DNA of 53,917 nt, taken from an uncultured Bacteroidia bacterium (lineage in GTDB: Bacteria > Bacteroidota > Bacteroidia > Bacteroidales > UBA932). The notes beneath the pieces were generated by a model. That model did not search any database, was not told where the DNA came from, and saw nothing but the letters and a program-made list of their open reading frames with translations. Where the stretch lies: contig CACYHC010000016.1 in the NCBI GenBank assembly GCA_902774145.1, forward strand, positions 1 through 53,917, read 5' to 3'. Both the position numbers and the translations under genes were made by a program. This document shows, piece by piece, positions 14,716 to 52,940 of the stretch (the first letter of the stretch is position 1; every line of letters begins with the position of its first letter).

Positions 14716-14717
14716 AG

Positions 14718-14725: not shown

Positions 14726-14810
14726 GACATATTGCCAGAGGAAAAACGAAGGACGCGGCGAAAGTTTTTAACAAAATTATAAACACTGCCCCACACTGCC
14801 GGAAAATTCG

Positions 14811-17665: not shown

Positions 17666-17696
17666 CAAATTTTTCTTACCTTGCGTCGTTTTTGCG

Positions 17697-18083: not shown

Positions 18084-18088
18084 CAGCG

Positions 18089-36916: not shown

Positions 36917-36919
36917 GGC

Positions 36920-38272: not shown

Positions 38273-38276
38273 AGAT

Positions 38277-38354: not shown

Positions 38355-38376
38355 CGGATTTTTCGGCAAAAATGGA

Positions 38377-39372: not shown

Positions 39373-39701
39373 CACGCTGTAGGTGTTTTAATATTTACCG
39401 CACCGATAAAGTCCTTGCCGGCCATCGCCGCAAGCATCCCGAAAAAATCGCTCTCGTCTATTTTTAATGAACGGCAAATGATGCTGCGATTGGCCCCTTC
39501 CGGGAGCATATTGGTAAAGAACGGGAACAACGAATCAGACTCGAAGGGCTCCTTCCTTTTTGGCAAAGTCACGGATACCGGCGGCAGGCCGGATGTCAGG
39601 TACGCATCATCATAAACAAACGAATAACCCTTGCCAGGATGCTGTTCTTTGAGTATACCAGCCTTGCAGCCATTCATATAAACATCCAGTTGTCTCATCA
39701 T
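39372..39701 (-). CDS. hipS: HipS-like protein (HipA N-terminal domain), likely antitoxin
   Basis: This 109-residue protein is equivalent to the HipA N-terminal subdomain as a separate gene. It shows the LPPVSVTLPKR segment and the FFTNMLPEGANR segment typical of that domain. In HipBST systems the small HipS protein neutralises the HipT kinase, which is the reverse of the usual HipB antitoxin role. The start at 39701 (tandem ATG) overlaps the hipB stop by 4 bases, and its stop overlaps hipT by 1. It is a complete domain rather than a broken hipA, because the starts and stops are tightly coupled. Confidence 0.85.
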   Translation of the reverse strand: MMRQLDVYMNGCKAGILKEQHPGKGYSFVYDDAYLTSGLPPVSVTLPKRKEPFESDSLFPFFTNMLPEGANRSIICRSLKIDESDFFGMLAAMAGKDFIGAVNIKTPTA

Positions 39702-39901
39702 TCAACGGTGTTACGAACCCTAAATTGCATCTCCATTCCCAATACGTCCAGCAGTTTGGTAACGGTAGAGAAGGACGGATTGCCTTTGCCCCGCTCAATA
39801 TCCTTTACGGTAGCCACCCCAACACCAGCCATCTCTGCCAAATCCGGCTGCGATACGGCAAGTGTTTTGCGGCGCGATTTCAAAACTTCTCGAAGGTTCA
39901 T
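39698..39901 (-). CDS. hipB: HipB-like XRE-family DNA-binding protein
   Basis: This 67-residue protein is a single helix-turn-helix of the XRE/Cro type: segments VSQPDLAEMAGVGVATVKDIE and GKGNPSFSTVTKLLDVLG are the recognition region. It is too small for a full HipB tail. As the first gene of the hipB-hipS-hipT operon it should repress the operon. A -7 box lies 27 bases upstream, flanked by repeated 14-bp candidate operators. Confidence 0.9.
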   Translation of the reverse strand: MNLREVLKSRRKTLAVSQPDLAEMAGVGVATVKDIERGKGNPSFSTVTKLLDVLGMEMQFRVRNTVE

Positions 39902-39910
39902 AAGTACAAT

Positions 39911-39986
39911 AAATCATACTATTTTCCGCAAAAATAAGGTAAAACTTTCATTTTTGCAAGAAAAAGTCGATTAAATCATACTATTT
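39911..39986 (-). promoter_or_regulatory. hipBST promoter with two repeat operators
   Basis: The -7 box TATTTTTG (minus strand) lies at 39929-39936. AAATCATACTATTT occurs exactly at 39911-39924 and again at 39973-39986, once just downstream of the box and once 37 bases upstream. On the minus strand it reads AAATAGTATGATTT, with AAAT/ATTT arms. The two copies probably bind HipB (or HipB-HipS-HipT) to repress the operon. Confidence 0.6.
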
Positions 39987-40067
39987 CATTTTGTTGACTA
40001 TATTGAACAACATGAAAAATTTTTGAATTTTGTTCAGTGTATTTATCGTTTTGTTCTACCAGGGATC

Positions 40068-40118
40068 TGTTTATTCCAATAAACAATTTTTGGCCAAATT
40101 TGTTTATTGCGATAAACA
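40068..40118. repeat. Two orphan palindromes in the 240-bp gap upstream of hipB
   Basis: TGTTTATTCCAATAAACA (40068-40085) and TGTTTATTGCGATAAACA (40101-40118) share perfect arms of at least 7 bp around a short centre, 33 bases apart. They resemble paired operators of a small helix-turn-helix repressor. No gene with a matching start is adjacent: the region 39902-40141 lies between the hipB start and the stop of the TerB-like gene. A further TGAACAA/TTGTTCA inverted repeat lies at about 40003-40036. No coding sequence was seen in this gap. Confidence 0.65.
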
Positions 40119-40141
40119 CGGAGAAAAATTCAATGTCACTA

Positions 40142-41554
40142 TCAGCCTAAAAGCTTAAGATACGCCTTATAAATAGAAGACTCAAGTAAGGGGGTTGAGC
40201 CTTCTCGGCTGATTATAGTAACATTTTCTGGATTAATGGGTATGTAGTATGAATTTTTCCCTGTTTTTGTAGGTGTAAAGAGGTGAAGTTCACCCTTGAT
40301 TCCACACTCTTCCAAACCTTTCATTACTTTTGTTTTGATAGGCCGAAATGTAGATGAACTCGTTATATCCGGAATCTTCTCTCGATTACTAACCAAATGA
40401 TATGCTTCTACGAATTGAGCCTGAACCTTTTTACTCAGTTCTCTTTCATAATCGAAATCAATTCCTCTTTGAGGGCTACTGGCAGAGCCACAGAGCAACA
40501 GTAGATAAAAGGCTGCTTCACGCCCGTTGATTAGGACAGGATACTTTGCATCACCTTTACAAATTTCTATAGAAAATTTATGTCCCGGTTCAGATAGGTC
40601 AATTACTGGATTTCTCCCAGCACGAGTATAAACTCTGACCTCCCATGTTTCAACCTTATCGGCAGCTATGACATCTAGTAGGGCCTTATGAAATCCGCCA
40701 TACAAGAAGTCTTTTGCTTGATCAGCATGATGGTTGACATGTACCACATATGGCCCCTGACGCCTATTCAGCCCTTCTATAAATGTTATTAGTTGCCCCT
40801 TTATGTCATCCATATTAACATCGTAGCAAAGATAATTCGCATAATCATTACCACTTACCACACTATTAGGAAGTCCAATTAGCCAGGACGGCCGTTGCAT
40901 GGTTAGGCCCATCTGAAGCTTACCGTTTAGCACCTGTAGAAAAAAATACCGTGAATCCATATCCTGCAGGGCTCTCGTTTTGTTCAAAAACGCTCTTTCA
41001 CTCAACGTAGGGTTTACGAGAGAGATAAGCCTCACTAAATCTTTGACTTTCTTCATTACTTTAAAATCCATCGCAACCCTGGGGATATAGATGAGTTCTA
41101 GTCCTGCCATTTCGACTATTCTTCTCAACTCCTCGTAATTACGATCCAGGTCGTTTTTCCTGGGATTGTAAGTCGAATCAACATAGACAATCTGCGAAGG
41201 CAGAATTGGACGGTTTTTCAGAGGCATAGAGAGAATTCGGCCTTTACCAGAATTAACGATTTCAATGGAACTGATTAATAGTGCTTCTTCTCGACAACAT
41301 TCACCATCTTTAAGAGCAAGATTTTCCATCAAATCAACAATCTTCTCTCTAACATGCATCTTCTGATCAGCAAGACAAACGGCCGCTTCAGCCAAGGAAA
41401 TCTCATAACTTGCAACATAGCATTCCTTAGTAAGTTCATAGAATTTCGCTGCTTCCTCAAGGATGTCCATCTCATCTACCGATATGACATTGTCAGATTT
41501 TACTAGATCTGCAAGTATCCTACATAAACTATTCTTAAGTTCAATACTAGCCAT
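40142..41554 (-). CDS. Protein with TerB-like N-terminal region, function unknown
   Basis: This 470-residue cytoplasmic protein has an N-terminal helical region (about 1-95) that resembles TerB/DjlA-type domains: the repeated pattern SDNVISVDEMDIL and LALKDGECCREEALL is the acidic metal-binding helix pair of that fold. The rest (about 120-470) has no domain I recognise; the C-terminal segment IKGELHLFTPTKTGKNSYYIP looks like a compact DNA- or nucleotide-binding end, but this is guesswork. There is no signal peptide. It is divergent from the AlbA-WYL regulator and AT-richer than the chromosome around it, so horizontal acquisition is likely. A defence role is only suggested by its neighbours. 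Confidence 0.6.
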   Translation of the reverse strand: MASIELKNSLCRILADLVKSDNVISVDEMDILEEAAKFYELTKECYVASYEISLAEAAVCLADQKMHVREKIVDLMENLALKDGECCREEALLISSIEIVNSGKGRILSMPLKNRPILPSQIVYVDSTYNPRKNDLDRNYEELRRIVEMAGLELIYIPRVAMDFKVMKKVKDLVRLISLVNPTLSERAFLNKTRALQDMDSRYFFLQVLNGKLQMGLTMQRPSWLIGLPNSVVSGNDYANYLCYDVNMDDIKGQLITFIEGLNRRQGPYVVHVNHHADQAKDFLYGGFHKALLDVIAADKVETWEVRVYTRAGRNPVIDLSEPGHKFSIEICKGDAKYPVLINGREAAFYLLLLCGSASSPQRGIDFDYERELSKKVQAQFVEAYHLVSNREKIPDITSSSTFRPIKTKVMKGLEECGIKGELHLFTPTKTGKNSYYIPINPENVTIISREGSTPLLESSIYKAYLKLLG

Positions 41555-41573
41555 ATGAAAATTTTTATCGCAA

Positions 41574-41581
41574 CAAATTTA
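41574..41581 (-). promoter_or_regulatory. -7 promoter box of the TerB-like gene
   Basis: The minus strand reads TAAATTTG, an exact TAnnTTTG match, ending 19 bases before the ATG at 41554. The 240-bp divergent gap 41555-41794 is very AT-rich with no gene seen in it. Confidence 0.5.
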
Positions 41582-41743
41582 TGAAAATCATCGGAATGCC
41601 GCAAATCGACAGATATGATAGCAAGAAATTTATGTCAAAAATAATTCTTATATACTTAATCATCATATATTTACTATACTTAAACTGAAATTGCAACAAA
41701 TATTTAATCGTTCTCAGTTTTTTTGTTTTACTAATAAAGTCCT

Positions 41744-41751
41744 CACCTTTG
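41744..41751 (+). promoter_or_regulatory. Probable promoter of the AlbA-WYL regulator gene
   Basis: CACCTTTG differs from TAnnTTTG at one base, and a TTG element lies 18 bases upstream (41723-41725), close to the usual -33 spacing. The start codon is 43 bases downstream. No other candidate is closer. Confidence 0.4.
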
Positions 41752-41794
41752 TCCCAGAGAAACAGGCACACGGATAATATTAAAATTTAAGCAT

Positions 41795-43000
41795 ATGAAC
41801 ACAACTACCAAAATCAATTACGGACACGAAGGGCAAAACTGTGAATTTAAAACATCCTTCGTTATTTCTGCCGGCAACCACGGTGAAGATCAGCGGTTTG
41901 TTGTATTTAAAGCAGCATGCGCAATGATGAACGCCGAAGGTGGAGACATATATATTGGCGTAAAAGATAACGGGGAGGTTGCTATCGGTCCCCATTTCGG
42001 AATTCGTGGGGATATCGAGAAGATGCCAAAAATCTGCACGAATGACGCTTATGCCCGTCATATTAATGCACAAATCGACAAATACTTCGATGATGCGAGG
42101 TATGTGCGAGGCATTATGTTCGCCGAAGAAGATAAAGATTCTGAACATGTTATTCGTATTCATGTAAAAAAAGCAGATAGAGTGGTATACATGCATAAGT
42201 TAGGCTCTGATGAGCGCATTACTTTTCGCCGCGAAGGTGCCTCATCCCATGAGATGAACAAAGCGATGATTGCCCAGAGAGAGCGTGTGCTTTCCGAGGA
42301 AAAGGCCAAGTACAGTACCGATGGAAAGAGGGAAACTATTCGTCTGCGTATCCAAGAAGCGATTGAACGCAAGCAGAAGATAGTAATTTATGGCTATAGT
42401 TCCAGTCATAGCGATAGTAAGACCAACAGAATCGTAGAACCTATAGGTTTTATCTGTAACGGTCGCAGTATCTGGGCTTATGAAGAAGCCAAAGAAGGTC
42501 GTGATCCTCTTCGTCAGTTCAGACTGGGACGAATTGAGAACGTTGAGGTACTTCCTGAGGCTTGCAACCACGAAGAGAGTTACAAGCCCGCCTGTGTAGA
42601 TGTTTTTGAGTGGGCAAGGCCTATCAAGCCCGCCATTCATATTACCATTATGATTGGACCTTCTGCAAAAAACCGCCTTGTAGAAGAGTGCCCCAGTGCC
42701 GTGGAACACTTAACCGAACAACGTGATGGTCAGTGGTTATTAATGGCTGATGTGCACGAAATCGCCCCAGTGAAGCGTTTCTGCCAGGAATTCAAGGATT
42801 CTATTACGGTCTATGCTCCGGAAGAACTAAAGTCTGCCTTGGGACTTATTGAGCAAGTCGAGGATAAGCAGGAAAGCAAAACTACTGAGGATACTGACGC
42901 CAAGGAGAAAAACCTTATGGAAAGAATCAAACTGGCATTTGCTATCTTGATGCCCAAGATGTCTAAAAAACTCAGTTTTAGTTATGCAGGAAACAATTGA
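41795..43000 (+). CDS. AlbA_2/Schlafen-domain protein fused to WYL domain (putative regulator)
   Basis: This 401-residue protein has an N-terminal AlbA_2 (Schlafen) domain (about 10-150), including the EFKTSFVIS and GGDIYIGVKDNGEV segments, which are core motifs of that nucleic-acid-binding fold. A WYL domain follows (about 175-255): IRLRIQEAIERKQKIVIYGYSS, then RIVEPIGFICNGRSIWAYEEA and QFRLGRIENVEVL match the ligand-sensing core. A WCX-like C-terminal extension and a charged tail complete it. WYL proteins regulate defence genes in many islands, usually with a winged helix rather than AlbA_2. The divergent TerB-like gene may be its target. Confidence 0.82.
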   Translation: MNTTTKINYGHEGQNCEFKTSFVISAGNHGEDQRFVVFKAACAMMNAEGGDIYIGVKDNGEVAIGPHFGIRGDIEKMPKICTNDAYARHINAQIDKYFDDARYVRGIMFAEEDKDSEHVIRIHVKKADRVVYMHKLGSDERITFRREGASSHEMNKAMIAQRERVLSEEKAKYSTDGKRETIRLRIQEAIERKQKIVIYGYSSSHSDSKTNRIVEPIGFICNGRSIWAYEEAKEGRDPLRQFRLGRIENVEVLPEACNHEESYKPACVDVFEWARPIKPAIHITIMIGPSAKNRLVEECPSAVEHLTEQRDGQWLLMADVHEIAPVKRFCQEFKDSITVYAPEELKSALGLIEQVEDKQESKTTEDTDAKEKNLMERIKLAFAILMPKMSKKLSFSYAGNN

Positions 43001-43160
43001 AATCGAATTAATTGATATCATTAATGTCCACTAATGGCGTAGCCTTCCCTGTTTGGAGAAGTACACAGCGATATAGTTCTATTCTCGGCTAAATCAAAAG
43101 TCTGTATTTAACAACAAATAATTTTCATCAGCACTTGTAAGAAACATCAAGAATTAAGTA

Positions 43161-43168
43161 TATATTTG
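43161..43168 (+). promoter_or_regulatory. -7 promoter box upstream of the sigma-factor gene
   Basis: TATATTTG is an exact TAnnTTTG match 141 bases upstream of the sigma-factor ATG. It would give a leader of about 135 bases containing a terminator-like hairpin. The 43001-43309 gap also holds ATATAGTTCT at 43071-43080 and 43199-43208. No protein gene was seen in it. Confidence 0.5.
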
Positions 43169-43260
43169 TGCATCCGAAGAAGGCAATAGTTCTTTGACAT
43201 ATAGTTCTGGACACGCTTGAGTGTTAGACGGCGTCGCTAAACCGACTTTTTTCTAAGCGG

Positions 43261-43282
43261 ATGGCGGGAAACCGCCATTTTT
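43261..43282 (+). terminator. Hairpin with T-run in the leader of the sigma-factor gene
   Basis: ATGGCGG and CCGCCAT form a perfect 7-bp stem around a GAAA tetraloop, followed by five T bases. It sits 28 bases before the sigma-factor start and after the promoter, so it is either an attenuator or the 3' end of a short RNA. A second partial hairpin (TTAG..CTAA around GACGGCGTC, from about 43224) lies just upstream. Confidence 0.65.
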
Positions 43283-43309
43283 CCATCAACTCTCAATCTT
43301 TCACGCGCT

Positions 43310-43900
43310 ATGTCCCAGAACTTTTCACCTTCAAGCGATTCATCTATCGGCAAAAACCTATCGCTGTTCAACCCTGACGTCATTAAGTCAATTTCCGACA
43401 CCGTTCGGTTCACTTTAATGAAGAACGCCAGTTCCTGGGTGAAGAAGGGGTATATAGATGTTGATGACTTCATTCAGAGTGCCAATCTGCACATCCTGAA
43501 CCGAAGCGCTTCCTATGATCCGGATCACGGAACCCCCTTCAAGTCTTGGGTTTGTGTTGTTGCCCGGAATTACACTATCAGTGAGTCGAAGAAACTGAAA
43601 AAGATAATTACGGCCAAGACGCGGTTTAACGTTTTTGAGGGAATGGATTTAGAAGACGGATCAATCCTGGAACCATTCCAGCATGCAGAAGAGTTATCTG
43701 AATCTACGGACCGGCTGACGCAGCTCACTGGATTCCTCTCAACGCTGAACGATAGTGACAAGCTTTTGCTTGAGATGATGAAGGATGGTTTATCGAAGGG
43801 GCAGATGATGGAAATTATGCATAAAAGCGGTGGCAACATTGACACTTGCAAATCGCGGCTTCGTCAGAAAATCCTTCGGTATGTAAAGTCTCTTTACTGA
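43310..43900 (+). CDS. Sigma-70-family RNA polymerase sigma factor
   Basis: This 196-residue protein has a region 2-like segment (about 30-100) with DVDDFIQSANLHILNRSASYDPDHG and FKSWVCVVARNY, which are the core-binding and promoter-melting signatures of ECF-type sigma factors. The C-terminal region 4-like helix-turn-helix (about 135-190) has LSKGQMMEIMHKSGGNIDTCKSRLR. No anti-sigma gene is adjacent. Its place in the AT-rich block and its odd leader suggest that it belongs to a mobile or island regulon rather than housekeeping control. Confidence 0.85.
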   Translation: MSQNFSPSSDSSIGKNLSLFNPDVIKSISDTVRFTLMKNASSWVKKGYIDVDDFIQSANLHILNRSASYDPDHGTPFKSWVCVVARNYTISESKKLKKIITAKTRFNVFEGMDLEDGSILEPFQHAEELSESTDRLTQLTGFLSTLNDSDKLLLEMMKDGLSKGQMMEIMHKSGGNIDTCKSRLRQKILRYVKSLY

Positions 43901-43919
43901 TAAACCATGCGCAAATTTA

Positions 43920-43959
43920 GCCGCCGAAACCAATAAATAGTGGTCTCGGCGGCATTTTT
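43920..43959 (+). terminator. Rho-independent terminator after the sigma-factor gene
   Basis: GCCGCCGA (43920-43927) pairs perfectly with TCGGCGGC (43946-43953), with extra pairing inside (ACCA/TGGT), followed by A and five T bases. It begins 20 bases after the sigma-factor stop. Confidence 0.85.
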
Positions 43960-44007
43960 GTGCGACTTTCGGGTAAGATGGTGTAAGAATCCCTTATAGT
44001 CGTGTAT

Positions 44008-44031
44008 TAATAAGTGAAAACGAACTTATTA
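44008..44031 (+). repeat. 8-bp inverted repeat just upstream of the 66-residue gene
   Basis: TAATAAGT (44008-44015) and ACTTATTA (44024-44031) are exact reverse complements around an 8-base loop, ending 4 bases before the ATG at 44036. It could be an operator or a translation-control hairpin. Confidence 0.5.
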
Positions 44032-44035
44032 TGTT

Positions 44036-44236
44036 ATGGACAAGAAAGATACAATTGTTACGGACGTCGTTATTCAAGCTTTGAGGATGGATGACACCAT
44101 CAAGAGACAAGAGGTCATTATTGAAAGATTAAAATCAGACAATAATGAACTCCATCTAATAATTTCAAGACTGAAAGAACTCCTCAATCGATATGTCCCA
44201 GAATCTGTTGAACAGATGGATCTTTTGGGCATCTAA
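44036..44236 (+). CDS. Small coiled-coil protein of unknown function
   Basis: This 66-residue protein is nearly all helical with heptad-like Ile, Leu and Val spacing (about 8-50), so a short coiled coil or dimerisation helix is likely. There is no signal peptide, no Cys and no recognised family. It follows the sigma-factor gene's terminator and an inverted repeat, so it is likely transcribed on its own. Its neighbour downstream is convergent, 7 bases away. Small charged coiled-coil proteins of this kind can be antitoxins or phage-type accessory proteins, but nothing here proves that. Confidence 0.55.
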   Translation: MDKKDTIVTDVVIQALRMDDTIKRQEVIIERLKSDNNELHLIISRLKELLNRYVPESVEQMDLLGI

Positions 44237-44243
44237 TATACCC

Positions 44244-44540
44244 CTATAGCTCAAAGGTTTCTATGGAAACTTTTGTATAGCCATATCCATCTATTCGATT
44301 CTTCCAAAATGTATCTTCTGAGTCTATATCAGTATCAGGAATCACGCCAGTTGATAAAATTAAAGAAAATGGCCAGCCTTCCCCAGGCCATGATAACATG
44401 TCCCTCTCTTCATGAAATCGTTTTCGAGCCGAATCTATATCGGTATATACACCTAAGAGCTCATGGCCTTCGCCCTTATAACAGAGGTCCTTGATATTTT
44501 CGTCAAAATACCAGCTGGAAATAACTACATAAAGTTTCAT
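44244..44540 (-). CDS. Small protein of unknown function, DUF7336-like
   Basis: This 98-residue protein begins with a KLYVVISSWYF strand and a HELLGVYTDIDSARKRF segment. That pattern of strand, GVYTD turn and helix recalls small DUF7336-type domains of Bacteroidota and phages that report on sequence-specific tasks not yet known. No signal peptide or metal motif is visible. Its gene is in the AT-rich block, and its start lies 21 bases from the probable end of the DUF1848 gene on the same strand, so it may be the last member of that operon. Confidence 0.5.
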   Translation of the reverse strand: MKLYVVISSWYFDENIKDLCYKGEGHELLGVYTDIDSARKRFHEERDMLSWPGEGWPFSLILSTGVIPDTDIDSEDTFWKNRIDGYGYTKVSIETFEL

Positions 44541-44560
44541 TATAGTGCAATAAAAGTCAA

Positions 44561-45594
44561 CTAATCTATGATGCTTTCAGATTTTTCACTATGACTATAC
44601 TTGTTATTAAGAACAGTATTTTTGCTGGTATTTGCATAACAGTATACGCAGAAATGGCGGCAAGTATTATACATGCCGATATCTTTGCTGATCATGCACC
44701 CACACACCTTACGCTGACCTTTATCCTTGAGATTCTTCCTATCCGTTGGGATTTCTGGAATGCCACCGAATAAGTCTGGCTCCGGGAGTTTGCCGGTATG
44801 AAGGTAACATCAGCAAAGAGTTTTTCCATCAATTCACCATCGATACAGCGGTTATGCTCGATGCGATATTTATCCAGATCAATACTTTCTCCACAGGTGG
44901 CCAATGTTAGATTCCAGCCTTCTTCTTTCCAGTGGTCCCGCAACTTGGCAAGTCCATCGACCAACTCAGTCAAATATGCTCCCGAGGGCTCTGCCGACTC
45001 GACGGTCTCACGGGTATAATATGGCGTCTCTTTTACGAGATTGTTTTGGACCTTACGGTATGCCTTTACGTCGATAAAACTGAACACCAGTTTGTCCGTA
45101 TAACCCTTCAACTGGTTTCCAACGTGGAAAACCTTCGTCAGTAGCTGTCTGGCTGTCAGGTTTGGCGTAACGATAAGTGGATCAAATCTCCATATAACCT
45201 TCTCTTTGCCGATAGTTTCAGAGAGTCGTTTGAACACGTCAATGCGCTGGGCAACCGGACCGACATTGGGCTCAAAGCCTTCGTCGACGTAGTCGTTCAG
45301 CGTTACCTGAAAATAGTAATGAATTCCCATCCTGTCCAGTTCCGGCAGATGCTTCAGCATCGGCTCCGGATTCTTGGTCCAGAATACGACAACTTTCGTT
45401 TTCGCGAAGGATATGTACAACGGTTTTTGGTTGAAAGGGTTGTACCAAACGCAATACCCAGCACGAAGCCGGTTCATGAACCAGTCCGCATAAAAGGCGG
45501 GGATGTCGGTGGAGCGACTGGCGGATATAATCACCGGTGCAACTCCTTCGACAACCTCTCCGTTATCGCGACGTATTTCAACCTTAGATTCCAA
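44561..45594 (-). pseudogene. DUF1848 protein gene with a 1-base frameshift near its 3' end
   Basis: The first 265 or so codons (45594 down to about 44800) encode a clear DUF1848 protein: ISASRSTDIPAFYADWFMNRL near residue 23, VVFWTKNPEPMLK near 68, VIWRFDPLI near 133. After FIP the frame runs into an atypical tail that stops at 44692. In the -1 frame the family's conserved end continues from about 44794: GKLPEPDLFGGIPEIPTDRK, then CGCMISKDIGMYNTC, and CRHFCVYCYAN, stopping at 44561. One lost base near 44794-44797 (a short C run on the coding strand) explains it. It is a real mutation or a base-call error. The Cys motif suggests an Fe-S protein; no function is known. It overlaps the preceding 776-residue gene by 11 bases. 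Confidence 0.85.
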
Positions 45595-47914
45595 AGTACT
45601 GTTTTAATTCCCGTTCAATTCTATCCGCCAAGTCTCCTACAAATACACCTCGAAGATCATGATACCTTCCCATTTCTCCACGCCCTTCTTTTCTGGCAAC
45701 TGAAATGAAATAGTGAACGTGACCTCTTATCTCGGGTTCACTCTTGCCTGTAAAGTCCCAGATGTTATTCAGGCGCTTTATGACCACAGCACTAAGATTT
45801 CTTGTACTTGGCAAACTTTCCACTACGGTAGGATTTGCCATCCGGAACACGCTATTCTCTTCATCTTCTTTCTGCTTTATCAGTTTCCGGATTCTTCCTT
45901 TTGCCTTATTCCAGGCACTCGTGGCACATGATACCGGGATAGCCTCTATACCATTAAGTATTGCAATAAGGTTTTCGTTCTTTTCAAACACTCTGTCAAC
46001 GGCTGTAGAATATGTGCTTTTATACTCCTTGACTTCCTTTTTCTTCGGCGTCTCTTCTTCGATAATCTGGAGGGCTTTATCCCACACCTCAGTATAAGGA
46101 TGACCTTCCAGCGATTGCCGGGCATAGTTTTCTTCTTTTACAACCGATTCCGTTGAGAAAGTAGTTTCAGGGATAGAAATTTCTTTGCCTGCACCGAAAT
46201 CTGGCATATCTTCCTCTACGCTGGAGGCTGGCAAACTGCCTGTTGGAATAACGTCCGGGGGGAGGTCATCCATTTCATCCAGGTTAAGAACCGGTTCCGC
46301 AAGAGTTGAAGGTTTTTCCTCATTGGTGGTGATGTCATCGTTATCTTTTGTCGAGAAAATCTCGGTGACAGATTCAACCGCGCCTTTTAATAAACTACCG
46401 ATTCCTTTACCTTTCTTCTGAGGTTGTGTAGGAGTCTCGACGATTGCTTTCATACCAAAGCCATTTACGGCTTCATAAACGGCCGAATTCAAGAGTTCCC
46501 ACAGCGCTTTGTTATCCCGATAGTTCAGAAGGATATTGGTGAAATCCTTGGGAAGGTTGGCAAATCCATTTACTATTCCATAAAATGCGAAAGGCGTAGC
46601 CTGATTCTGAATACCTTTCGATATTAAGAACAAACGCAGACCATCCCAGGTGTCACCTTTCATCAAGACAGCTGCAAGAGCCGAAAGGACATCCTCGCTC
46701 CATTTTTCGGTGAACTCCTCTCCATTAAGATTCCTTCTCAATGCATTGAGGAAAGGCTTAGCAGAAGAATTCTCCCAACCGTCTTTATATACATTATCCC
46801 TCACAGACTTGGTTAACTCCGTAGCAAGATCCAAGCGATAAGAGGCTAGGCTACCTTTGTATTTATTGTCCGCAAGTTCACCATTGATCCATAATTCAGC
46901 AACTGCTTTATCTTCGGGCCTCCCAGCAAGCACCGGCATTTCAATTACGTTCTTTGGTAAAATGGCTATGTCCTTGGCGCTTTCCGGCCATATCCGGGTA
47001 CCAGCGGGATCAAGAATTCGGTGAATCTCCGAAGTAAGATAGTTGATTGCCTGCTCCTGCGTCTTGGGGCTAAGAATCATTGAATATAGATTAAACACGC
47101 CTCGGTCCGGAGAATTAGACGCCGGCTCCCAGCGACACTGATTGAAAACATCATCAATGAGCGAGGCAACCGAATTCGCATCAAGATTCGTCTTGTCCAA
47201 TAGTAAGCGAGCAAGAGATGATTCCTGAAGAACGGTTTGTTGCAGTTGGAGTTTCTGCTGGGGGGTCGGTTTCTTATCTATGCTGCCGTAAATAGCTGAA
47301 GCGAGGTCGAGCAGCGTTTGAGTGGTCTTGACACGGAATCCCTGTTCCTTGGAAACTGACAGAAGATTTCCGATATGGTATCCATAGATGAACCCCTTGA
47401 CTTTGTTAATACGAACAGATTTCGCCAATTCATCCCTATTGAGTTCGGCGTCGGGGACTTGAGGCGCAACATAATTGCCACCGACACGCTCTACACGTAT
47501 CTTTCTGTTGTAAATCCGTACCAGTTTAGTCTCCAAACTACCTTCTGCTTTTGACAGGACAATATCTTTTTGCTGTTCGCTAAAGAACACAAATCCGGTG
47601 GTCTTGGGGTTGAAATACAAAGTCCCATCATACAGATATGCTCCGCTTTTATCTTTGCGGAATAATTCTTCGACCTCTTTGTCATTAAGGCAAACCTCGA
47701 TCACCAGCGGATAATCATCAAATCCCTCATTGGGCCTCTGGAAATACCTTAGTTCATCGTATAGGACGATAAGGTTTTCGTAAGGATTCTCCGGAATGCT
47801 ATGCCACTTGCTGTACCCGAAGCCTCTTTCTCCATAGAAAGACTTTGGAGAAATGCTTTCTTCGGAAAACAGGCAGTTGAAATTCCTGCTACTTGTCGGA
47901 ATATAAAGTCTCAT
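45584..47914 (-). CDS. 776-residue protein of unknown family in NERD/helicase operon
   Basis: No domain was recognised. The N-terminal 130 residues form an alpha/beta segment (RLYIPTSSRNFNCLF, then GERGFGYSKWHSIPEN) that faintly recalls sensor or ADP-ribosyltransferase-like N-termini, but without a conserved catalytic set. Helical regions follow (about 140-500), then a low-complexity acidic linker rich in Pro, Ser, Asp and Glu (about 515-610), and a C-terminal helical part with Lys-rich segments (about 630-776). There is no signal peptide. It starts 2 bases after the helicase gene and overlaps the DUF1848 start, so it is a coupled member of the operon and may be its sensor or scaffold. Confidence 0.65.
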   Translation of the reverse strand: MRLYIPTSSRNFNCLFSEESISPKSFYGERGFGYSKWHSIPENPYENLIVLYDELRYFQRPNEGFDDYPLVIEVCLNDKEVEELFRKDKSGAYLYDGTLYFNPKTTGFVFFSEQQKDIVLSKAEGSLETKLVRIYNRKIRVERVGGNYVAPQVPDAELNRDELAKSVRINKVKGFIYGYHIGNLLSVSKEQGFRVKTTQTLLDLASAIYGSIDKKPTPQQKLQLQQTVLQESSLARLLLDKTNLDANSVASLIDDVFNQCRWEPASNSPDRGVFNLYSMILSPKTQEQAINYLTSEIHRILDPAGTRIWPESAKDIAILPKNVIEMPVLAGRPEDKAVAELWINGELADNKYKGSLASYRLDLATELTKSVRDNVYKDGWENSSAKPFLNALRRNLNGEEFTEKWSEDVLSALAAVLMKGDTWDGLRLFLISKGIQNQATPFAFYGIVNGFANLPKDFTNILLNYRDNKALWELLNSAVYEAVNGFGMKAIVETPTQPQKKGKGIGSLLKGAVESVTEIFSTKDNDDITTNEEKPSTLAEPVLNLDEMDDLPPDVIPTGSLPASSVEEDMPDFGAGKEISIPETTFSTESVVKEENYARQSLEGHPYTEVWDKALQIIEEETPKKKEVKEYKSTYSTAVDRVFEKNENLIAILNGIEAIPVSCATSAWNKAKGRIRKLIKQKEDEENSVFRMANPTVVESLPSTRNLSAVVIKRLNNIWDFTGKSEPEIRGHVHYFISVARKEGRGEMGRYHDLRGVFVGDLADRIERELKQYFGI

Positions 47915-47916
47915 GA

Positions 47917-48966
47917 TTACAATTCTTCAATAGTGTCAGTTTCACTCGAAATATAAAGATCCGACGGGACGCTTGAAAGCGGAGACGGCATAGAATAGTT
48001 GCTGTACATAACGTACAAATTCCGGTATGTTCTGGTCATAGCAACGTATAAGGACTTTCTTAAATCATCGGAATCAGCAGACTCGACGAAAGGCAGGAAG
48101 ACCGTTTCAAATTGCAGGCCCTTTGCACTGTGATACGTCATCAACTTCGGATTTGTTGAATTGAAGTTCAACGTATCGACATTGTTGTGATAATCGTCTT
48201 TATCGTTATATCGAATCTCGTGGTTGATTCCCTGGCCATTAAGCAGTTGACTCATCTTGGGAATAGCCTCATTATGGGGAACTAAAATGCCCACATCGGT
48301 AAGGTTCCTTGCCTTGATAATCCTTGCGATGGCTTTTATCTGGTCCTCTCCTGAAGAGTACCTGATAAAACGAGGCTTCTGGTTTTCTGTACTTTTATAT
48401 GTCCTTTCCCTGTACGGGTCGACACCTACGCCTATGTAGGTCTGAGTGACTCTTGCAATGGGTTTAGGAAGCCTGTAATTGAAATACAGGGGCACAGCAT
48501 CCGCGTTAGGGAGCATACTTCCAATCTCACGCATCGAAAGCGTGGTTTTCAGTCCGCCATATATAGACTGGGCTGTGTCTCCAAAGAAGAAGATGTTTTT
48601 TCTCGCGCTATCGATGAACTCCTGAATCTCTTCCCGCGTGAAGTCCTGAGCCTCATCGACGATTACATAATCTGCCTTGGGCATACCACGACGGTTTTTC
48701 CAATCCCAGTGATAGTAAAATGCATCATTCAAACCCAATTCCTGACGACCTGCCTGCATATAATCCTTCAGCGCCTTCGTAAAGACGATCACAGTATAAT
48801 CTCTCCCTTTTTCTGCCTGAATACGTTTCGCTTTCTGAAGGGCGATAACGGACTTTCCGCTTCCTGCACATCCAGAAACCACCAGTGAACGGTCAAGCGT
48901 CCTGTCTAACAAGTCCATTTGATAATCATCAAGCATGGATTCTTTTACCATGAAATCCCTAGGCAT
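47917..48966 (-). CDS. Compact SF1 (UvrD/DUF2075-like) helicase
   Basis: This 349-residue protein has a full set of SF1 motifs in unusually small form: Walker A GCAGSGKS at 32-39, VDEAQD at 103-108, FGDTAQSIY at 128-136, NYR near 163, YHSAKGLQFETVFLP at 278-292 and LYVAMTRTYRNLYV at 306-319. It lacks the large 1B and 2B inserts of Rep/UvrD, so it resembles small NERD-associated helicases. It starts 10 bases after the NERD gene stop and ends 2 bases before the 776-residue gene start. The likely role is a DNA or RNA translocase acting with the NERD nuclease. Confidence 0.88.
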   Translation of the reverse strand: MPRDFMVKESMLDDYQMDLLDRTLDRSLVVSGCAGSGKSVIALQKAKRIQAEKGRDYTVIVFTKALKDYMQAGRQELGLNDAFYYHWDWKNRRGMPKADYVIVDEAQDFTREEIQEFIDSARKNIFFFGDTAQSIYGGLKTTLSMREIGSMLPNADAVPLYFNYRLPKPIARVTQTYIGVGVDPYRERTYKSTENQKPRFIRYSSGEDQIKAIARIIKARNLTDVGILVPHNEAIPKMSQLLNGQGINHEIRYNDKDDYHNNVDTLNFNSTNPKLMTYHSAKGLQFETVFLPFVESADSDDLRKSLYVAMTRTYRNLYVMYSNYSMPSPLSSVPSDLYISSETDTIEEL

Positions 48967-48976
48967 ACTCTACTCC

Positions 48977-50722
48977 TTATTTGTTTTGTGTTAATTCAAA
49001 TGCATTCACAATGTTTTGCCCCCGACACTGCTTGCAGGTATCGGAGTTGACCGCACTCACGACATAAGTGTTTCCTTCAGGGGAAAGGTGACGTGTGATG
49101 TCATCCACAAATACACGATGGCCCAACAACCGGTACGCCACCTTGCTGACATCGTTTGATTTTCCCCGATGAGATACCGAGAATACTTGCTGAGTGTAGC
49201 AAGGCGTATTACACTCGCGCTCCTTGAAACGACAAGAAAGAGGTAAGATGCTGCTGAACGAACCATCCTCGGAAATGAAGCGGTTTACTTGGTCGTTAAG
49301 GATTTGAGGATAGAAGATTCCAGTCCCTTCATCCTTCATCGTGATATCAAGTATACAGAGCACCCCAGAAAGGTTCAGCAAAGGAGCCAGCACACTACAG
49401 ATGTCTTTGTAGACCGTTTTCATTCCTTGACGGAGCAGTTCAGATCCGGCCTTGTCGAACAATATAATATCATACGGGAAATACTCGTTGATGGGCTGGG
49501 CAAGAATATCATTGACAGACAGAATACGGCAACGGATACACTTGCACTCAATTGTCACATAAGGATACTGCTTCCGGCACTCTTGGATGAAATACCGAAG
49601 CGAATTGATTGAAGACTCACAAGCTTCAATCACCGTAATCAAAAGAGTTTTTAACCTCTTCGAATTCTGCAGGCACGCAGTTATCGTCCCCATCAAATCG
49701 CCACCGCCGCCTGAACAAATATTCAGAATGGCTATGGTATCCAAGTTGGAATACACCGACTGGAAACGACCGCTTTTATAGAGATTGCCAAAAATAGTAT
49801 TCAGCTCGACGAAACTTCTGGGAAAGTAGGTGCCTAAATACTTTCGTTGGTCCTCATCTGACAGGTCAAGGTTATCTGAGAAGCGACGCCAATCAGGTTC
49901 GTAGCGAGCCTTCAGAGTGTCAAATAAGAAGGATTCTATCCATACAGGTAATGTAGAGGCCGGAGCCGAACTGACCTCGACCGGCTCAACTTTCACAACG
50001 GCCGCTTGGGCCTCTATCTCATCGAAGATATTCATTCCTGTATCGTCCGAGGGTGCGTGCTCTTCTTCAGCAGGTTCTTCCTCTGCACTTTCCTCATTTA
50101 CGTTAATCAATACTTCAGGATTTGAATATCTTACACAAAGCCAGTCAGGATCTAAGTTCAAACGTTCAATAATCCTGGCAAAATCCCCTTCTTGTAAGTC
50201 ACACTCAGGGGTTACTATTAAATCCAATTCGTCGATAAACCCTTTTTCATCGCACACGCGAAGCCACTTAATGCGAGGGCTGATCTGATTGTTTATTGAA
50301 GCTGGGTGGTGGAACACTATCAAGGACGAGAGGCGCTCTACCTGTTTGGCTGTCAAAGCTCCTGTCTCCACAAGAACAGGCCGACAAGAATTGCGGTTTA
50401 TCTTTGCCTGGAGGTAGGGATTCTTCCGGCCCGATCCGCCTCGAATAACGGATTTGATACCATCCGTTTCTGCCGTCCAGTCGCCATTTTCTGTGGCTGT
50501 AATATTCCCGCCGAAGTCTTTGAACTCTACGAGAACAACTCCTTCATTCTTAATGATGATGCCATCAAGCTCAACATCGCCAATATTGTAGTTTCCGATA
50601 AAGATGCACATCTCGTCTGGAGAGGATGAAAACCTCTCCTTAAGAAGGACGCACAGATTTCTGAACTGCTCACGTTCATGTGTCTGATCGTAGTTCCTTG
50701 GCCTGTATACGAGTAATGGCAT
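48977..50722 (-). CDS. NERD nuclease domain fused to a methyltransferase-like Cys4 domain
   Basis: This 581-residue protein begins with a NERD (nuclease-related) domain (about 15-140). The PD-(D/E)XK residues are D53 in VELDGI and E66 and K68 in VLVEFKDF. An acidic linker follows (about 210-250). From about 265 to 545 there is a Rossmann-type methyltransferase-like domain: the YLGTYFPRSFVEL segment, the glycine-rich NICSGGGGDLMG loop at 334-345, and a YDIILFDKAG strand near 417. Four cysteines in CNTPC (504-508) and CKQC (563-566) could bind Zn or Fe-S, as in Rsm22/METTL17-like proteins. The fusion is unusual and its substrate is unknown. It is first in the operon. Confidence 0.72.
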   Translation of the reverse strand: MPLLVYRPRNYDQTHEREQFRNLCVLLKERFSSSPDEMCIFIGNYNIGDVELDGIIIKNEGVVLVEFKDFGGNITATENGDWTAETDGIKSVIRGGSGRKNPYLQAKINRNSCRPVLVETGALTAKQVERLSSLIVFHHPASINNQISPRIKWLRVCDEKGFIDELDLIVTPECDLQEGDFARIIERLNLDPDWLCVRYSNPEVLINVNEESAEEEPAEEEHAPSDDTGMNIFDEIEAQAAVVKVEPVEVSSAPASTLPVWIESFLFDTLKARYEPDWRRFSDNLDLSDEDQRKYLGTYFPRSFVELNTIFGNLYKSGRFQSVYSNLDTIAILNICSGGGGDLMGTITACLQNSKRLKTLLITVIEACESSINSLRYFIQECRKQYPYVTIECKCIRCRILSVNDILAQPINEYFPYDIILFDKAGSELLRQGMKTVYKDICSVLAPLLNLSGVLCILDITMKDEGTGIFYPQILNDQVNRFISEDGSFSSILPLSCRFKERECNTPCYTQQVFSVSHRGKSNDVSKVAYRLLGHRVFVDDITRHLSPEGNTYVVSAVNSDTCKQCRGQNIVNAFELTQNK

Positions 50723-50746
50723 CTACTATTTAATGAAGTGATTATG

Positions 50747-50754
50747 CAAATTTA
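50747..50754 (-). promoter_or_regulatory. -7 promoter box of the NERD operon
   Basis: The minus strand reads TAAATTTG, an exact TAnnTTTG match 24 bases upstream of the ATG at 50722. No repeat or palindrome is visible around it. The 157-bp gap 50723-50879 separates the operon from the divergent TPR gene and has no other gene. Confidence 0.55.
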
Positions 50755-50879
50755 CCAATTTTATTTTATACAGTAAACCGAAATATACTTTTTCTGCTTC
50801 TATTGTAAGAATCCGGGTAAAACGAGTATTAACCTTTGACTTGAAACCCGAAACAATCAACAAATAACTTTCACGCAAA

Positions 50880-52940
50880 ATGAAACGATTATTTTCCATT
50901 TTTGCAGCAATACTGCTGACTGCCCTGAGCGTAAATGTTTACGCTCAGAAGAACAAAACCGAGAACGACTACAACCTCAAGAAGGCCTACGAGGTCCTGA
51001 ACAAGGAGAAGGACGAGGCCAAGGCTTTGGACCTTGTGAACAAGCAGCTGCGGGAGACGCCGGACAATGTGGACGCATTGATTCTTCGGACACGCCTCCT
51101 CCGCCGCAAGCATGAGTTCGGCCAGGCACTCCAGGACATCAACCATGCTCTGAAGGTCAACAAGCCGAAGAAGTCAGGGACTGCCATGTCCACGATTCAT
51201 TGGTGGAAAGCCTACATCTATCAGGATATGGGTGACTGGGAGAATACTGCTTCATCGCTCAAGACAGCGTATGAGCTGGCCCAGAAGGACGATAAGGACA
51301 ACCTGCAGAGCATATCGTTCGATTATGCCCAGGCTCTCTACAGTTTGAAAGACTACGACGGTGCCGATGTCATCTATCGTAAGATGCTCGCTATCGATGA
51401 AGCGGATCAGGCGGCCATGATTGGCCTTGCTCGTAACATGGTTACGCGTGAGCAATATAAGGAGGCTTTGGATCTGCTGGAAAAATGCCGGAAGTACGAT
51501 GCCGAATATGCTGAAATCTACCGCTTCAAGATGCAGGCTTATGACAAGCTTGAGGAGACGAATAAAGCCATCGACGCCGGTTTGGACTGGTTTGACAAAG
51601 ATGATGATGCCAATACGGAGTCTATCCTGCAGGTTCTGAAAAAGCGGCCGAACTACGCTGAGGCCAGCCTGAAATCCCGCGCCAAGAAGAGCGAGAGCCC
51701 CTTCCAGTGGAAGGCATTCCTGTGCCAGTTCTACGAGACGACGCATCAGTATGCAGAGGCCGTGAGGGCGTATGATGACCTGGAAGCCGAGTTTGGCCAT
51801 TATGACCAGATTAATTTCTACAGGAGTGACTGCTACAGTGAGTTGGGGCTCAATGAGCTCGCCATCGCCGACATCTCCAAAGCAATGGAGAAAGACCCGA
51901 GTTGGCGCAGTCTCTGCCAGCGTGGTGACTATTACCGGCTCTCCGGTGATATCGATGCTGCTATCGCGGACTTCACCGCCGCCATTGAGGAGGTCCCTGA
52001 CGGAGCCTATGCCTACTACAAGCGTGGATGGTGCTATGAGATGAAGGGAGATCGTAAGAAGGCACTTGAGGATTATAACCTGGGCCTTGAGATGACCGAG
52101 GACTATCCATACCTCTATCTTATGCGTGGCAAGCTCCTGCTGTTGGATGGTAATATAGTCGAAGCGGATGCTGATTTTGAGGTGGTCATCCAGAAGGATA
52201 CCATTGCCGAGGATGGGAGCTGCCGCCAGTATGCCCTGCACTTCCTGGGCCGTGACAAAGAAGCAGAGGAGTGGATGGAGAAGATCATTGCTTCCGATCA
52301 GGAGGATGCAGGCCACTATTATGACCAAGCCTGCCTCTACTCCAGGATGGGTCGTCTGGAGGAGTCCATTGCAGCTCTCCGCAAGTCTTTCGAGAAAGGC
52401 TACCGCAGCTTCTCTCACATCCGTCTGGATGATGATATGGATGCCGTACGCGAATTGCCAAAGTTCAAGGCCCTGATGGAGGAGTATGAGGCCAAACACG
52501 CTGAGTATCTGAAGCAGTTTGAACTGTCGATGCCAGAGAAGGAGGAGACAGTTACCGAAATTGCCGTCAAGCGCAATCCCGGCGGCACCTTCGAGATTCC
52601 TTGCGACATCAACGGCCTTGCCCTGCAGATGATTTTTGACACTGGGGCCTCTGATGTCACCATATCATCTGTGGAAGCCAACTTCATGTTCAAAAATGGC
52701 TATCTTTCTGACAAAGACATAAAGGGAAAGCGCTATTATCAGGTGGCCAACGGCCAGATCAATGAGGGCACCGTTATCACCCTGCGCGAGGTCAAGATTG
52801 GCGACGCAGTGCTTCATAACGTGGATGCCTCGGTGGTGAAGAGCCAGAAGGCACCGCTTCTCCTGGGGCAAAGTGCAATGGAGCGTTTTGGGACTATCAC
52901 GATTGACAACCAGAACAACAGGCTCATCATCAAACACTAG
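50880..52940 (+). CDS. Exported TPR protein with C-terminal retropepsin-like aspartic protease domain
   Basis: This 686-residue protein has a signal peptide (about 1-22, ending VYAQ). Multiple tetratricopeptide repeats fill about 28-530, with units such as AIADISKAMEKDPSWRSLCQRG and AIADFTAAIEEVPDGAYAYYKRG. The C-terminal domain (about 555-686) is a clan AA single-lobe protease: active-site FDTGASDVTIS near residue 587, and LLLGQSAMERFG near 662, matching the paired hydrophobic-Gly motif. It needs a dimer for activity. The TPR part may supply that or bind a substrate. The protein sits in the periplasm. The next gene starts 6 bases later. Confidence 0.88.
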   Translation: MKRLFSIFAAILLTALSVNVYAQKNKTENDYNLKKAYEVLNKEKDEAKALDLVNKQLRETPDNVDALILRTRLLRRKHEFGQALQDINHALKVNKPKKSGTAMSTIHWWKAYIYQDMGDWENTASSLKTAYELAQKDDKDNLQSISFDYAQALYSLKDYDGADVIYRKMLAIDEADQAAMIGLARNMVTREQYKEALDLLEKCRKYDAEYAEIYRFKMQAYDKLEETNKAIDAGLDWFDKDDDANTESILQVLKKRPNYAEASLKSRAKKSESPFQWKAFLCQFYETTHQYAEAVRAYDDLEAEFGHYDQINFYRSDCYSELGLNELAIADISKAMEKDPSWRSLCQRGDYYRLSGDIDAAIADFTAAIEEVPDGAYAYYKRGWCYEMKGDRKKALEDYNLGLEMTEDYPYLYLMRGKLLLLDGNIVEADADFEVVIQKDTIAEDGSCRQYALHFLGRDKEAEEWMEKIIASDQEDAGHYYDQACLYSRMGRLEESIAALRKSFEKGYRSFSHIRLDDDMDAVRELPKFKALMEEYEAKHAEYLKQFELSMPEKEETVTEIAVKRNPGGTFEIPCDINGLALQMIFDTGASDVTISSVEANFMFKNGYLSDKDIKGKRYYQVANGQINEGTVITLREVKIGDAVLHNVDASVVKSQKAPLLLGQSAMERFGTITIDNQNNRLIIKH

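Follow-up and report, generated by a model that had tools for sequence, protein, structure and literature searches.

Introduction

The closest described relatives of the locus studied here are the Pfam families 2CompART (PF22546) and 2CompARG (PF22545), for which literature searches by family name and by description found no paper. In both of the 2CompART loci that we found, an SF1 helicase gene lies directly upstream, which is a feature of these two loci and is outside Pfam's definition. Both also have a gene for an AlkB-like 2OG oxygenase, and one has a methyltransferase-like gene. Among defence systems, Gabija comprises GajB, whose models are about 500-650 aa long, and GajA, which has an OLD/TOPRIM nuclease domain. 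By PADLOC's names, families of DUF1848 proteins, SF1 helicases and NERD-helicases (RTasDUF1848, RTasHel and RTasNERD-Hel) adjoin defence reverse transcriptases (DRT) as accessory genes; a full-text literature search for DUF1848 found no paper. PADLOC also contains PDC-M16A, a candidate defence protein. The Rsm22/METTL17 proteins have a class I methyltransferase fold and a four-cysteine [4Fe-4S]-type motif. Here, we analysed a window of 53,917 nucleotides (the whole stretch of DNA considered) from an uncultured Bacteroidia bacterium, in which four genes bring together a NERD nuclease, a methyltransferase-like domain, an SF1 helicase, a large protein similar to 2CompART and a DUF1848 protein. 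Judged from its sequences, this gene set is likely to have a defence role.

Results

The locus consists of four minus-strand open reading frames in the order A-B-C-D, at the place where a sequence-only reading of the window had put them:

48977..50722, minus strand: gene A (581 aa), which joins a NERD nuclease domain to a class I SAM-dependent methyltransferase-like domain
47917..48966, minus strand: gene B, 349 aa, minimal SF1 (UvrD/HelD-like) helicase
45584..47914, minus strand: gene C, 776 aa, constant partner of helicase B, probably a distant 2CompART relative
44692..45594, minus strand: gene D, DUF1848 protein, 300 aa in this frame, TTG start
50747..50754, minus strand: box TAAATTTG, possible -7 box, 24 bases upstream of the ATG of A

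The tight spacing described in that reading was confirmed, with 10 bases between A and B, 2 bases between B and C, and an overlap of 11 bases between C and D. Its AT-rich base use also differs from the surroundings, as had been claimed: GC is 0.452 across 44561-50722 and 0.567-0.618 in 308 segments of 6162 bases (sampled within 1-36900). However, the low-GC tract (36901-50800, 13.9 kb, GC 0.444 vs 0.592) is larger than the operon. The proposed promoter box TAAATTTG, possibly a Bacteroidota-type -7 box (pattern TAnnTTTG), is indeed present upstream of A, but a single copy carries little weight because the window holds 33 matches to this type of pattern where 16.75 are expected. In three same-genus genomes examined, the gene that neighbours the operon on the right stands without the four genes beside it.

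Protein A can be described as composed of two parts:

50312..50611, minus strand: NERD domain, aa 38-137 (PF08378, E 5.5e-8), with the PD-(D/E)XK-type motif ELD...EFK
49094..49954, minus strand: methyltransferase-like domain, about aa 257-543, with a conserved YLGTYFPRS and a glycine-rich motif (alignment A10)

The fusion that the sequence-only reading had recognised is supported. PF08378 scores 33.7 bits on A (Pfam cut-off 22.1), and Methyltransf_12 is matched by seven of the eight A members. The member without a match is the window's own A, whose glycine motif (SAM-binding) deviates from the family consensus. The AlphaFold model of A, made from 3 rows, has pLDDT values mostly of 75-91 over aa 257-490, and its fold search returned many class I methyltransferases, with NNMT ranked first. 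Chain 7 of 8css, 8csr and 8csp (human mitoribosome assembly), presumably METTL17, appeared at ranks 28, 41 and 42 with E about 1e-6. PF09243 (Rsm22/METTL17) was absent among the 25 families listed, of 26 matched by the eight A members at E<=10, and it had no match at E<=0.001 in the window's own genome. The earlier proposal that A is kin to Rsm22/METTL17 is not supported by these searches, and no known housekeeping family was found for this 581-residue protein. As for the four cysteines that had been ascribed to A, a three-cysteine pattern, C-x6/7-C-x3-C, is present in five of the eight members, that of the window included, but the cysteines are absent in the other three. The PADLOC model PDC-M16A matches A in its N-terminal NERD region, with E 4.7e-29 over aa 1-192; the match is limited to positions 1-191 of 917, and the remainder of A is methyltransferase.

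The nuclease part varies among the relatives of A, being NERD, PIN or none recognised; in locus L045 the relative aligns over its full length, NERD part included. The pairing of a NERD nuclease with an SF1 helicase that had been pointed out is thus real in the window but is not constant. A search with the A profile in genomes of the order gave matches in 6 of 295. The window's own genome, G386, G402 and G561 also have C; in G005 the match is a stretch of 42 aa, and in G307 A and then D stand at the start of a contig, with neither B nor C present.

Protein B has a UvrD_C match (6e-13, Pfam), together with a Walker A motif (GCAGSGKS), a Walker B motif (DEAQDF) and a motif VI (YVAMTR). The solved structures nearest to it include UvrD, PcrA and HelD, and structures of GajB were matched as well. 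B resembles GajB also at the level of models (best 5.8e-17) but, at 349 aa, it is shorter, and A, C and D have no OLD-type GajA domain. B matches RTasHel and RTasNERD-Hel, and D matches RTasDUF1848 (2.2e-29); however, none of the four genes has a reverse transcriptase. No PglZ or PglX match was obtained among the ten window proteins scanned.

Gene D was identified by a DUF1848 match of 7e-72 (Pfam), in agreement with the sequence-only reading, but the gene is not intact. Its frame ends at 44692 and lacks the conserved tail, and the tail CGCMISKDIGMYNTCRHFCVYCYANTS is found out of frame:

44561..44809, minus strand: open stretch of another frame that holds the missing DUF1848 tail (CGC...CX3CX2C)

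D is therefore frameshifted in this assembly. The C-terminal CX3CX2C, a radical-SAM-like motif, is present in eight of eight DUF1848 relatives and missing from the 300-aa frame of the window. Position 44561, which had been given as the left limit of the operon, is the stop of this tail and not the end of D.

For the window's C, Pfam gave a single match, which is not credible (E 0.08). Two segments were compared with the 2CompART loci:

47657..47914, minus strand: putative ART-like N-terminus of C, aa 1-86, aligned by hhalign with two 2CompART proteins
46547..46603, minus strand: second conserved C motif, QATPFAFYGIVNGFANLPK, aa 438-456, aligned with the 2CompARG region of L075

The N-terminal alignment spans 73 columns with E 4.9e-4 and an hhalign probability of 32%, and its score was equalled by 0 of 200 shuffles and by 0 of 215 real-sequence decoys, the latter being random pairs plus segments of the alignments of A, B and D, which overlap one another. 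The two groups have in common the N-terminal pattern N-x11-P-x2-[FY]-x3-R and a G-x3-G-[FY] motif. The second motif aligned over 21 columns (score 19.88, probability 9%), and none of 150 shuffles was as good. When C was aligned with one 2CompART protein, only the second motif was found (probability 1.9%), and full-length C against the 2CompART proteins gave 2.9%. A middle C motif aligned with the start of 2CompARG was dropped, with 44 of 150 shuffles as good.

C lies below both Pfam cut-offs. That of 2CompART (27 bits) is reached by no C; the C genes of G265 and G094 score 16.6 and 15.4 bits, and at E<=10 one of 18 C members was matched (E 0.044; L049 not included). Across 13 genomes there were ten weak 2CompART matches, two of them on C N-termini near the start of the profile and the other eight, the best one included, elsewhere; 2CompARG had no match on any C gene of these genomes at E<=10. 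Conversely, 2CompART proteins were absent among the 45 matches listed from a search with the HMM of C itself. Neither C nor D gave a credible match in PDB profile searches, and the AlphaFold model of C, made from 5 rows, has a pLDDT of 38.9. Residue E19, constant in the 18 rows of the C alignment (A7), is replaced by Gly in L049 and the 2CompART proteins, and no catalytic residues of the ART type were identified in C. From the N-terminal alignment, this part of C is probably an ADP-ribosyltransferase-like (ART-like) domain, and the balance leans towards common descent of C and the 2CompART proteins.

The recurrence of the four genes, on which their reading as one system depended, was confirmed. 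Relatives of C were found in 19 distinct loci, and in all of them B is directly upstream, as the SF1 helicase is in the 2CompART loci. Both A and D are present in nine of the 19 (in one, L038, A is a fragment), and ten have neither. Repeats were dropped before counting (L048=L045, L050=L046, L072=L049, L043=L016 and L044=L013, and the short loci L001-L010 and L017-L034). Of 23 helicase loci, L049 is counted here, L050 repeats L046, and most of the remaining 21 are short matches; no C was seen in the four of the 21 that were inspected (L051, L056, L061 and L070). C-type loci are sparse, with 6 of 299, 7 of 393 and 4 of 395 genomes (overlapping samples, the window's own genome counted each time). 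The B+C core is spread over several families of the class to which the window belongs, and occurs also in phage-type contigs and a Bacteroides MAG. In a plasmid collection, neither the three C queries nor the 2CompART protein had a match, and a phage collection gave one record for two C queries and none for the 2CompART protein. Viral scans returned only the L045 contig with A and only itself with the C of L049; those with the C of L016 and with L073 had no match.

The AlkB-like gene of the 2CompART loci has DUF1848 as its counterpart in the A-bearing C loci, and NERD or PIN fusions are a feature of the C loci. No kinship could be recognised between A and the L074 methyltransferase (probability 7%, E 0.0048); the likeness of the two gene sets is thus one of kind, with no orthology shown.

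Several C loci lie among defence-type or mobile genes. One locus (L041) is inside BREX, between PglX and PglZ, and another (L040) adjoins HsdR/S/M, a type I restriction-modification system. Nearby genes include a HamB-like gene (L042), a reverse transcriptase (the two-gene locus L036), PDC-M01A/B (L047) and TmtA (L016). Integrases, confirmed by Pfam, are found near L047 and L049; mobilisation-like genes in L045, and Xre-type and ImmA-like genes directly before B+C in L042, were read by eye. In 14 of the 19 loci, at least one neighbour was scanned with PADLOC. A match with E<=1e-50 lies beside seven of the 14, a figure that counts candidate families and refers to neighbours selected by eye, with no control set for comparison. 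Some of the loci would fit the expected recurrence in defence islands; seven of the 14 have no strong match.

Discussion

We regard it as an even chance that the operon is a modular anti-invader system, with a core of helicase B and the ART-like C, and an accessory pair of A and a radical-SAM-like D. From the gene sets, their recurrence and context, the domains and motifs, and the similarity of C to 2CompART, we infer catalytic steps, targets and an order of events. By engaging or remodelling DNA or RNA that is foreign or abnormal, B would direct or license C. C might then add ADP-ribose to nucleic acid or to a bound protein, or serve as an ADP-ribose-dependent switch. The role of A and D would be to mark or edit that same target, or to reverse the modification on self, and in 2CompART loci the AlkB-like genes may play a similar undoing role. 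The nuclease fused to A would be an exchangeable effector, because NERD and PIN swap among A relatives. A defence role is likely, and shared descent of C with the 2CompART proteins somewhat more likely than not; the full scheme is much less so.

An alternative is a repair or stress cassette that acts on the cell's own damaged DNA or RNA and has no anti-invader role. The radical-SAM-like motif in the relatives of D and the AlkB-like oxygenase of the 2CompART loci are both partner types that suit repair, and UvrD, PcrA and HelD are among the nearest structures to B; yet the sparse presence in the three overlapping genome samples, the loci inside BREX and beside type I restriction-modification genes, the integrase-side settings and the exchange of NERD for PIN make this unlikely. 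A module that maintains mobile elements, in the manner of a toxin-antitoxin pair, would have a toxic ART-like C restrained by its partners. The resemblance of C to an ART family, the integrases and mobilisation-like genes, and the Xre-type and ImmA-like genes before B+C fit such a module, but its set of several large enzymes, helicase included, and the insertion among BREX genes and beside restriction-modification genes do not, and an informal look noticed no small gene that the loci share; we consider it rather improbable.

The sequence-only reading had A as an Rsm22/METTL17-type enzyme that, together with the helicase and the nuclease, targets the ribosome or its RNA in a translation-directed defence. 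Despite the mitoribosome-assembly chains in the fold search and the cysteine motif in five A members, this is very improbable, given the absence of PF09243 among the families listed, the higher rank of NNMT and other class I methyltransferases, the three members without cysteines and the ten B+C loci without A. The operon in this genome could also be a decaying, functionless remnant, and here the frameshifted D, the off-consensus glycine motif of the only A without Methyltransf_12, and the fragment of A in L038 count in favour. Against it, the frames of A, B and C are long and open and retain the helicase and NERD motifs, B+C recurs elsewhere as a unit by itself, and an error in the assembly may account for the frameshift. 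Such decay has a small chance of being the explanation; the window copy may nonetheless be impaired.

If the modular defence system is real, it would provide a two-gene core of an SF1 helicase and an ART-like protein with plug-in enzyme modules, assign DUF1848, as a putative radical-SAM enzyme, to immunity, and tie the 2CompART/2CompARG pair to defence. Its extension to a layered immunity is a doubtful proposal. There, a helicase-guided ART-like enzyme would ADP-ribosylate invader nucleic acid and the methyltransferase would add a second mark. The radical-SAM DUF1848, or the AlkB-type oxygenase in relatives, would strip the modification from self, and NERD or PIN would be a last-resort killer. 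Self and non-self would then be told apart by a logic of modification and repair, and not by sequence-specific restriction. The two-gene core, the frameshift in DUF1848 and the link of C to 2CompART are additions to the sequence-only reading, from which they were absent.

The operon and its site

The four genes A, B, C and D are a candidate for a modular helicase-effector defence system, distantly related to the gene set that Pfam names 2CompART (PF22546). In the window, they form a minus-strand cluster with spacings of 10 and 2 bases and then an 11-base overlap, at the coordinates and with the layout that the sequence-only reading had described.

Genes of the operon in the window
A, minus strand, ORF of 581 aa: NERD and methyltransferase-like protein
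B, minus strand, ORF of 349 aa: SF1 helicase
C, minus strand, ORF of 776 aa: partner of B
D, minus strand, ORF of 300 aa: DUF1848 protein

The AT-rich base use noticed earlier corresponds to a 13.9-kb tract of low GC [36901-50800] that holds the operon and has a GC of 0.444, versus 0.592 for the adjoining chromosome [1-36900], where the minimum among 308 sampled windows of operon length was 0.567. The right-hand neighbour gene [50880-52940] is present in 7 of the 81 genomes of the genus, its own genome counted. In three of the six other genomes (loci L084, L085 and L086, the last with just 4.4 kb visible on the relevant side), A to D do not adjoin the homologue of this gene, and the position of the operon therefore looks like a variable site.

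Other genes seen in the tract
38377-39375: HipA-like protein, weak NCBIfam YjjJ match (5.9e-5)
40142-41554: 470-aa protein, with a 31% relative at L084 10660-12153, which has the same neighbour gene and is of the same genus
43310-43900: Sigma-70-like factor adjoining the operon
44244-44540: small protein near the operon, DUF7336 match below the cut-off

Recurrence of the genes

Among genomes of the family, 6 of 299 have a relative of C; the figures for the order and the phylum are 7 of 393 and 4 of 395, with the genome of the window in every count and with overlap between the samples. Further loci are L011, two viral contigs and one viral contig reached via B, and a relative also occurs in the faecal record MT835661, which is unverified and labelled 'Bacteriophage sp.'. 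After repeats were dropped, 19 distinct C loci were obtained, and B lies immediately upstream of C in all 19. The full four-gene set, whose recurrence in defence islands the sequence-only reading had named as support for a defence role, is found in nine: the window, L045, L012, L011, L037, L039, L040, L047 and L038 (counted as A-bearing, though its A is a 94-aa fragment). Both A and D are absent from the other ten (L041, L042, L049, L046, L013, L014, L015, L016, L035 and L036), as judged by BLAST to known A and D within the stretch read per locus. The gene order is A-B-C-D, except in L040, where it is A-D-B-C; in L039, a 273-aa gene separates C and D. Of 295 genomes from the order, 6 had a match to the A profile, and four of these also have C. 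Genome G307, in which no C was found, has A then D on a contig that begins 29 bases before A.

These distributions give a picture of two modules, B+C and A+D. In the helicase tree, the four-gene label needs 2 changes, compared with a mean of 7.1 for shuffled labels. The two-gene loci L041, L049 and L042 fall among the four-gene rows, at weakly supported forks, which fits joint gain or loss of A and D.

By eye, locus L094 [30-11830] has A and D at the contig start, followed by STAND-type ATPase-, trypsin- and MoxR-like ATPase-like genes. In L012, the four genes lie between transposase-like pieces [4977-5474 and 12404-13243], also identified by eye, as if they had inserted into a transposase gene.

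Genomic neighbourhood and novelty

Neighbour proteins were picked by eye and without a control set (six beside the operon in the window, 28 from other C loci and two from the 2CompART locus L074). The scan covered one or more neighbours in 14 C loci, and in 7 of these the hand-picked proteins included a PADLOC match at E<=1e-50; the scan left out L011, L012, L013, L014 and L046.

PADLOC matches beside C loci (PDC- names are candidate defence families)
L041: BrxC, PglX and PglZ around B+C
L040: HsdR/S/M beside the operon
L042: HamB-like, 6.4e-77 (the scan covered HamB only)
L016: TmtA, 2.4e-104
L036: RT, retron-type models, 2.4e-100
L047: PDC-M01A, 3.6e-122
Window 36920-38308: ATPase-like, PDC-S01 (candidate family only), 2.7e-151, where the low-GC tract begins on the left

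The scanned neighbours in L015, L035, L037, L038, L039, L045 and L049 gave no match at this threshold. The window [41795-43000], L036 and L041 have nearby genes with a WYL domain; that of the window encodes an AlbA_2 (Schlafen-type) and WYL protein on the strand opposite to the operon. This AlbA_2/WYL protein is a possible regulator of the island. WYL regulators are reported beside defence systems in PMC9122601. Locus L047 is bordered on one side by a tyrosine recombinase gene, confirmed with Pfam, and on the other by a gene that looks similar by eye; a phage integrase gene (Pfam) lies close to L049.

The four genes jointly match no single PADLOC 2.0.0 system, in agreement with the earlier statement that no named system with this set is known. 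Excerpts of PMC9503650, PMC10853773 and PMC12839542 describe no such gene set. Within the openly licensed literature, full-text search found no paper on DUF1848 and, among the papers listed for its name or for descriptions of it, none on 2CompART, an absence that is not proof.

Genes A, B and D

The N-terminus of A in the window matches NERD above the Pfam cut-off and has the motif ELD...EFK; a class I-type methyltransferase-like domain follows, so that the fusion proposed earlier is borne out. The A protein of L045 has the same composition by alignment and motif, while that of L012 is a methyltransferase-PIN protein (PIN_4, E 9e-21). A methyltransferase with no recognised nuclease is found in L011 and, as short proteins of 268-279 aa, in L037 and L039; the A proteins of L040 and L047 have short N-terminal extensions. 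Judged by these domains, the nuclease attached to A would be exchangeable (NERD, PIN or none recognised). Conflict systems typically swap their killing domains, and the exchange in A would fit such a system.

Methyltransf_12 is matched by seven of eight A members (best 6e-5), that of the window being the one without a match. The AlphaFold model of A, made with 3 rows, is good for the methyltransferase alone (about residues 257-490). Foldseek aligned it to class I methyltransferases, with nicotinamide N-methyltransferase at the top of the list; ranks 28, 41 and 42 (E near 1e-6) went to structures of human mitoribosome assembly, in each case to chain 7, which we take to be METTL17. The superpositions are loose, with RMSD mostly of 7-11 Å and TM-scores by target mostly <0.5. 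The motif C-x6/7-C-x3-C is present in five of the eight members. The assignment of A as a class I methyltransferase is supported. The Rsm22/METTL17-like identity suggested earlier is not supported: PF09243 (Rsm22) is not among the families listed for A members (25 of 26), and other class I methyltransferases rank higher.

Protein B, an SF1 helicase, carries the Walker A, Walker B and VI motifs, and its nearest solved structures by profile are HelD, UvrD, PcrA and GajB. In the two-gene locus L013 [3269-4978], the helicase has, by eye, an inserted cysteine-rich stretch.

Protein D of the window matches DUF1848 (E 7e-72). In the eight other D proteins from these operons, the C-terminus has CGC...CX3CX2C followed by YAN (D of L038 was counted from a late ORF start, 283 aa). 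This cysteine spacing resembles that of radical-SAM enzymes; the Pfam Radical_SAM model gave just E 0.2 on the cysteine loop of D from L012, the sole intact D scanned. In the window, the frame stops before the motif and the missing tail lies in another frame, so D is broken in this assembly. The left limit of 44561 set by the sequence-only reading is indeed a stop, but it belongs to this out-of-frame tail.

Gene C and the 2CompART proteins

Protein C has no credible match in Pfam, PADLOC (no model in version 2.0.0), NCBIfam, PHROGs or PDB sequences. The Pfam 2CompART model matched one C protein, that of L015, weakly (E 0.044), and true 2CompART genes were therefore searched for. They were found in 1 of 198 genomes sampled from the phylum and in 2 of 296 from a single order, with one genome common to both. 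For both genes, the next gene upstream codes for an SF1 helicase that is related to B by BLAST (E 2e-10 and 3e-16). In one locus, they are followed by genes for a methyltransferase-like protein, called from a motif by eye with no Pfam match, and an AlkB-like oxygenase (PF13532, 1.8e-19); in the other, an AlkB-like gene (PF13532, 3.3e-28) lies just before the helicase. Pfam divides the 2CompART protein of L075 into an ADP-ribosyltransferase (ART) domain and, after it, a 2CompARG (PF22545, ADP-ribose glycohydrolase) domain.

A profile of the C N-termini from 18 loci (L049 was left out) aligned to the two 2CompART N-termini over 73 columns from C residue 1, with an E of 4.9e-4, a probability of 32% and a score of 28.84, versus 22.47 for the best of 200 column shuffles and 20.55 for the top-scoring decoy among 215 drawn from the alignments of A, B and D. 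The full-length comparison returned the same stretch (E 0.015, probability 2.9%). A second C motif (GIVNGFANLPK in the window) scored 19.88 against the 2CompARG region, where the best shuffle reached 16.76 (0/150). In 13 genomes with C, two of ten weak 2CompART matches fall at C gene starts (G265, E 0.009; G094, E 0.036); the remaining eight lie elsewhere, the best of the ten (E 0.0015) among them. The genome of L015 gave none. On the other side stand the facts that no C reaches the Pfam 2CompART cut-off, that 2CompARG has no match on C, that the alignment of the middle part of C is not significant, that the structure model of C failed and that no catalytic residues could be named. Weighing these alignments, we lean towards shared descent of C and the 2CompART proteins as the likelier reading, with C as a putative ART.

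Proposed mechanism

From the observed gene sets, motifs, context and similarity of C, we infer every step that follows. B would bind or unwind foreign or abnormal nucleic acid, and C would add ADP-ribose to nucleic acid or bound protein or, alternatively, would act as an ADP-ribose-dependent switch. A would methylate and D would edit or reverse, with the nuclease as an optional effector. The AlkB-like gene of the 2CompART loci and the radical-SAM-like D may mean that both sets need a second enzyme that alters bases or adducts; the parallel is one of kind only.

By eye, ADP-ribosylglycohydrolase-like genes lie near two C loci, L011 [11331-12125] and L016 [8697-9203 and 12994-13971], and would be of interest if C is an ART. 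In the 2CompART locus L074 [3116-18673], two proteins of >1000 aa, one with a weak DRT match (6.5e-8), flank the helicase, ART, methyltransferase-like and AlkB-like genes.
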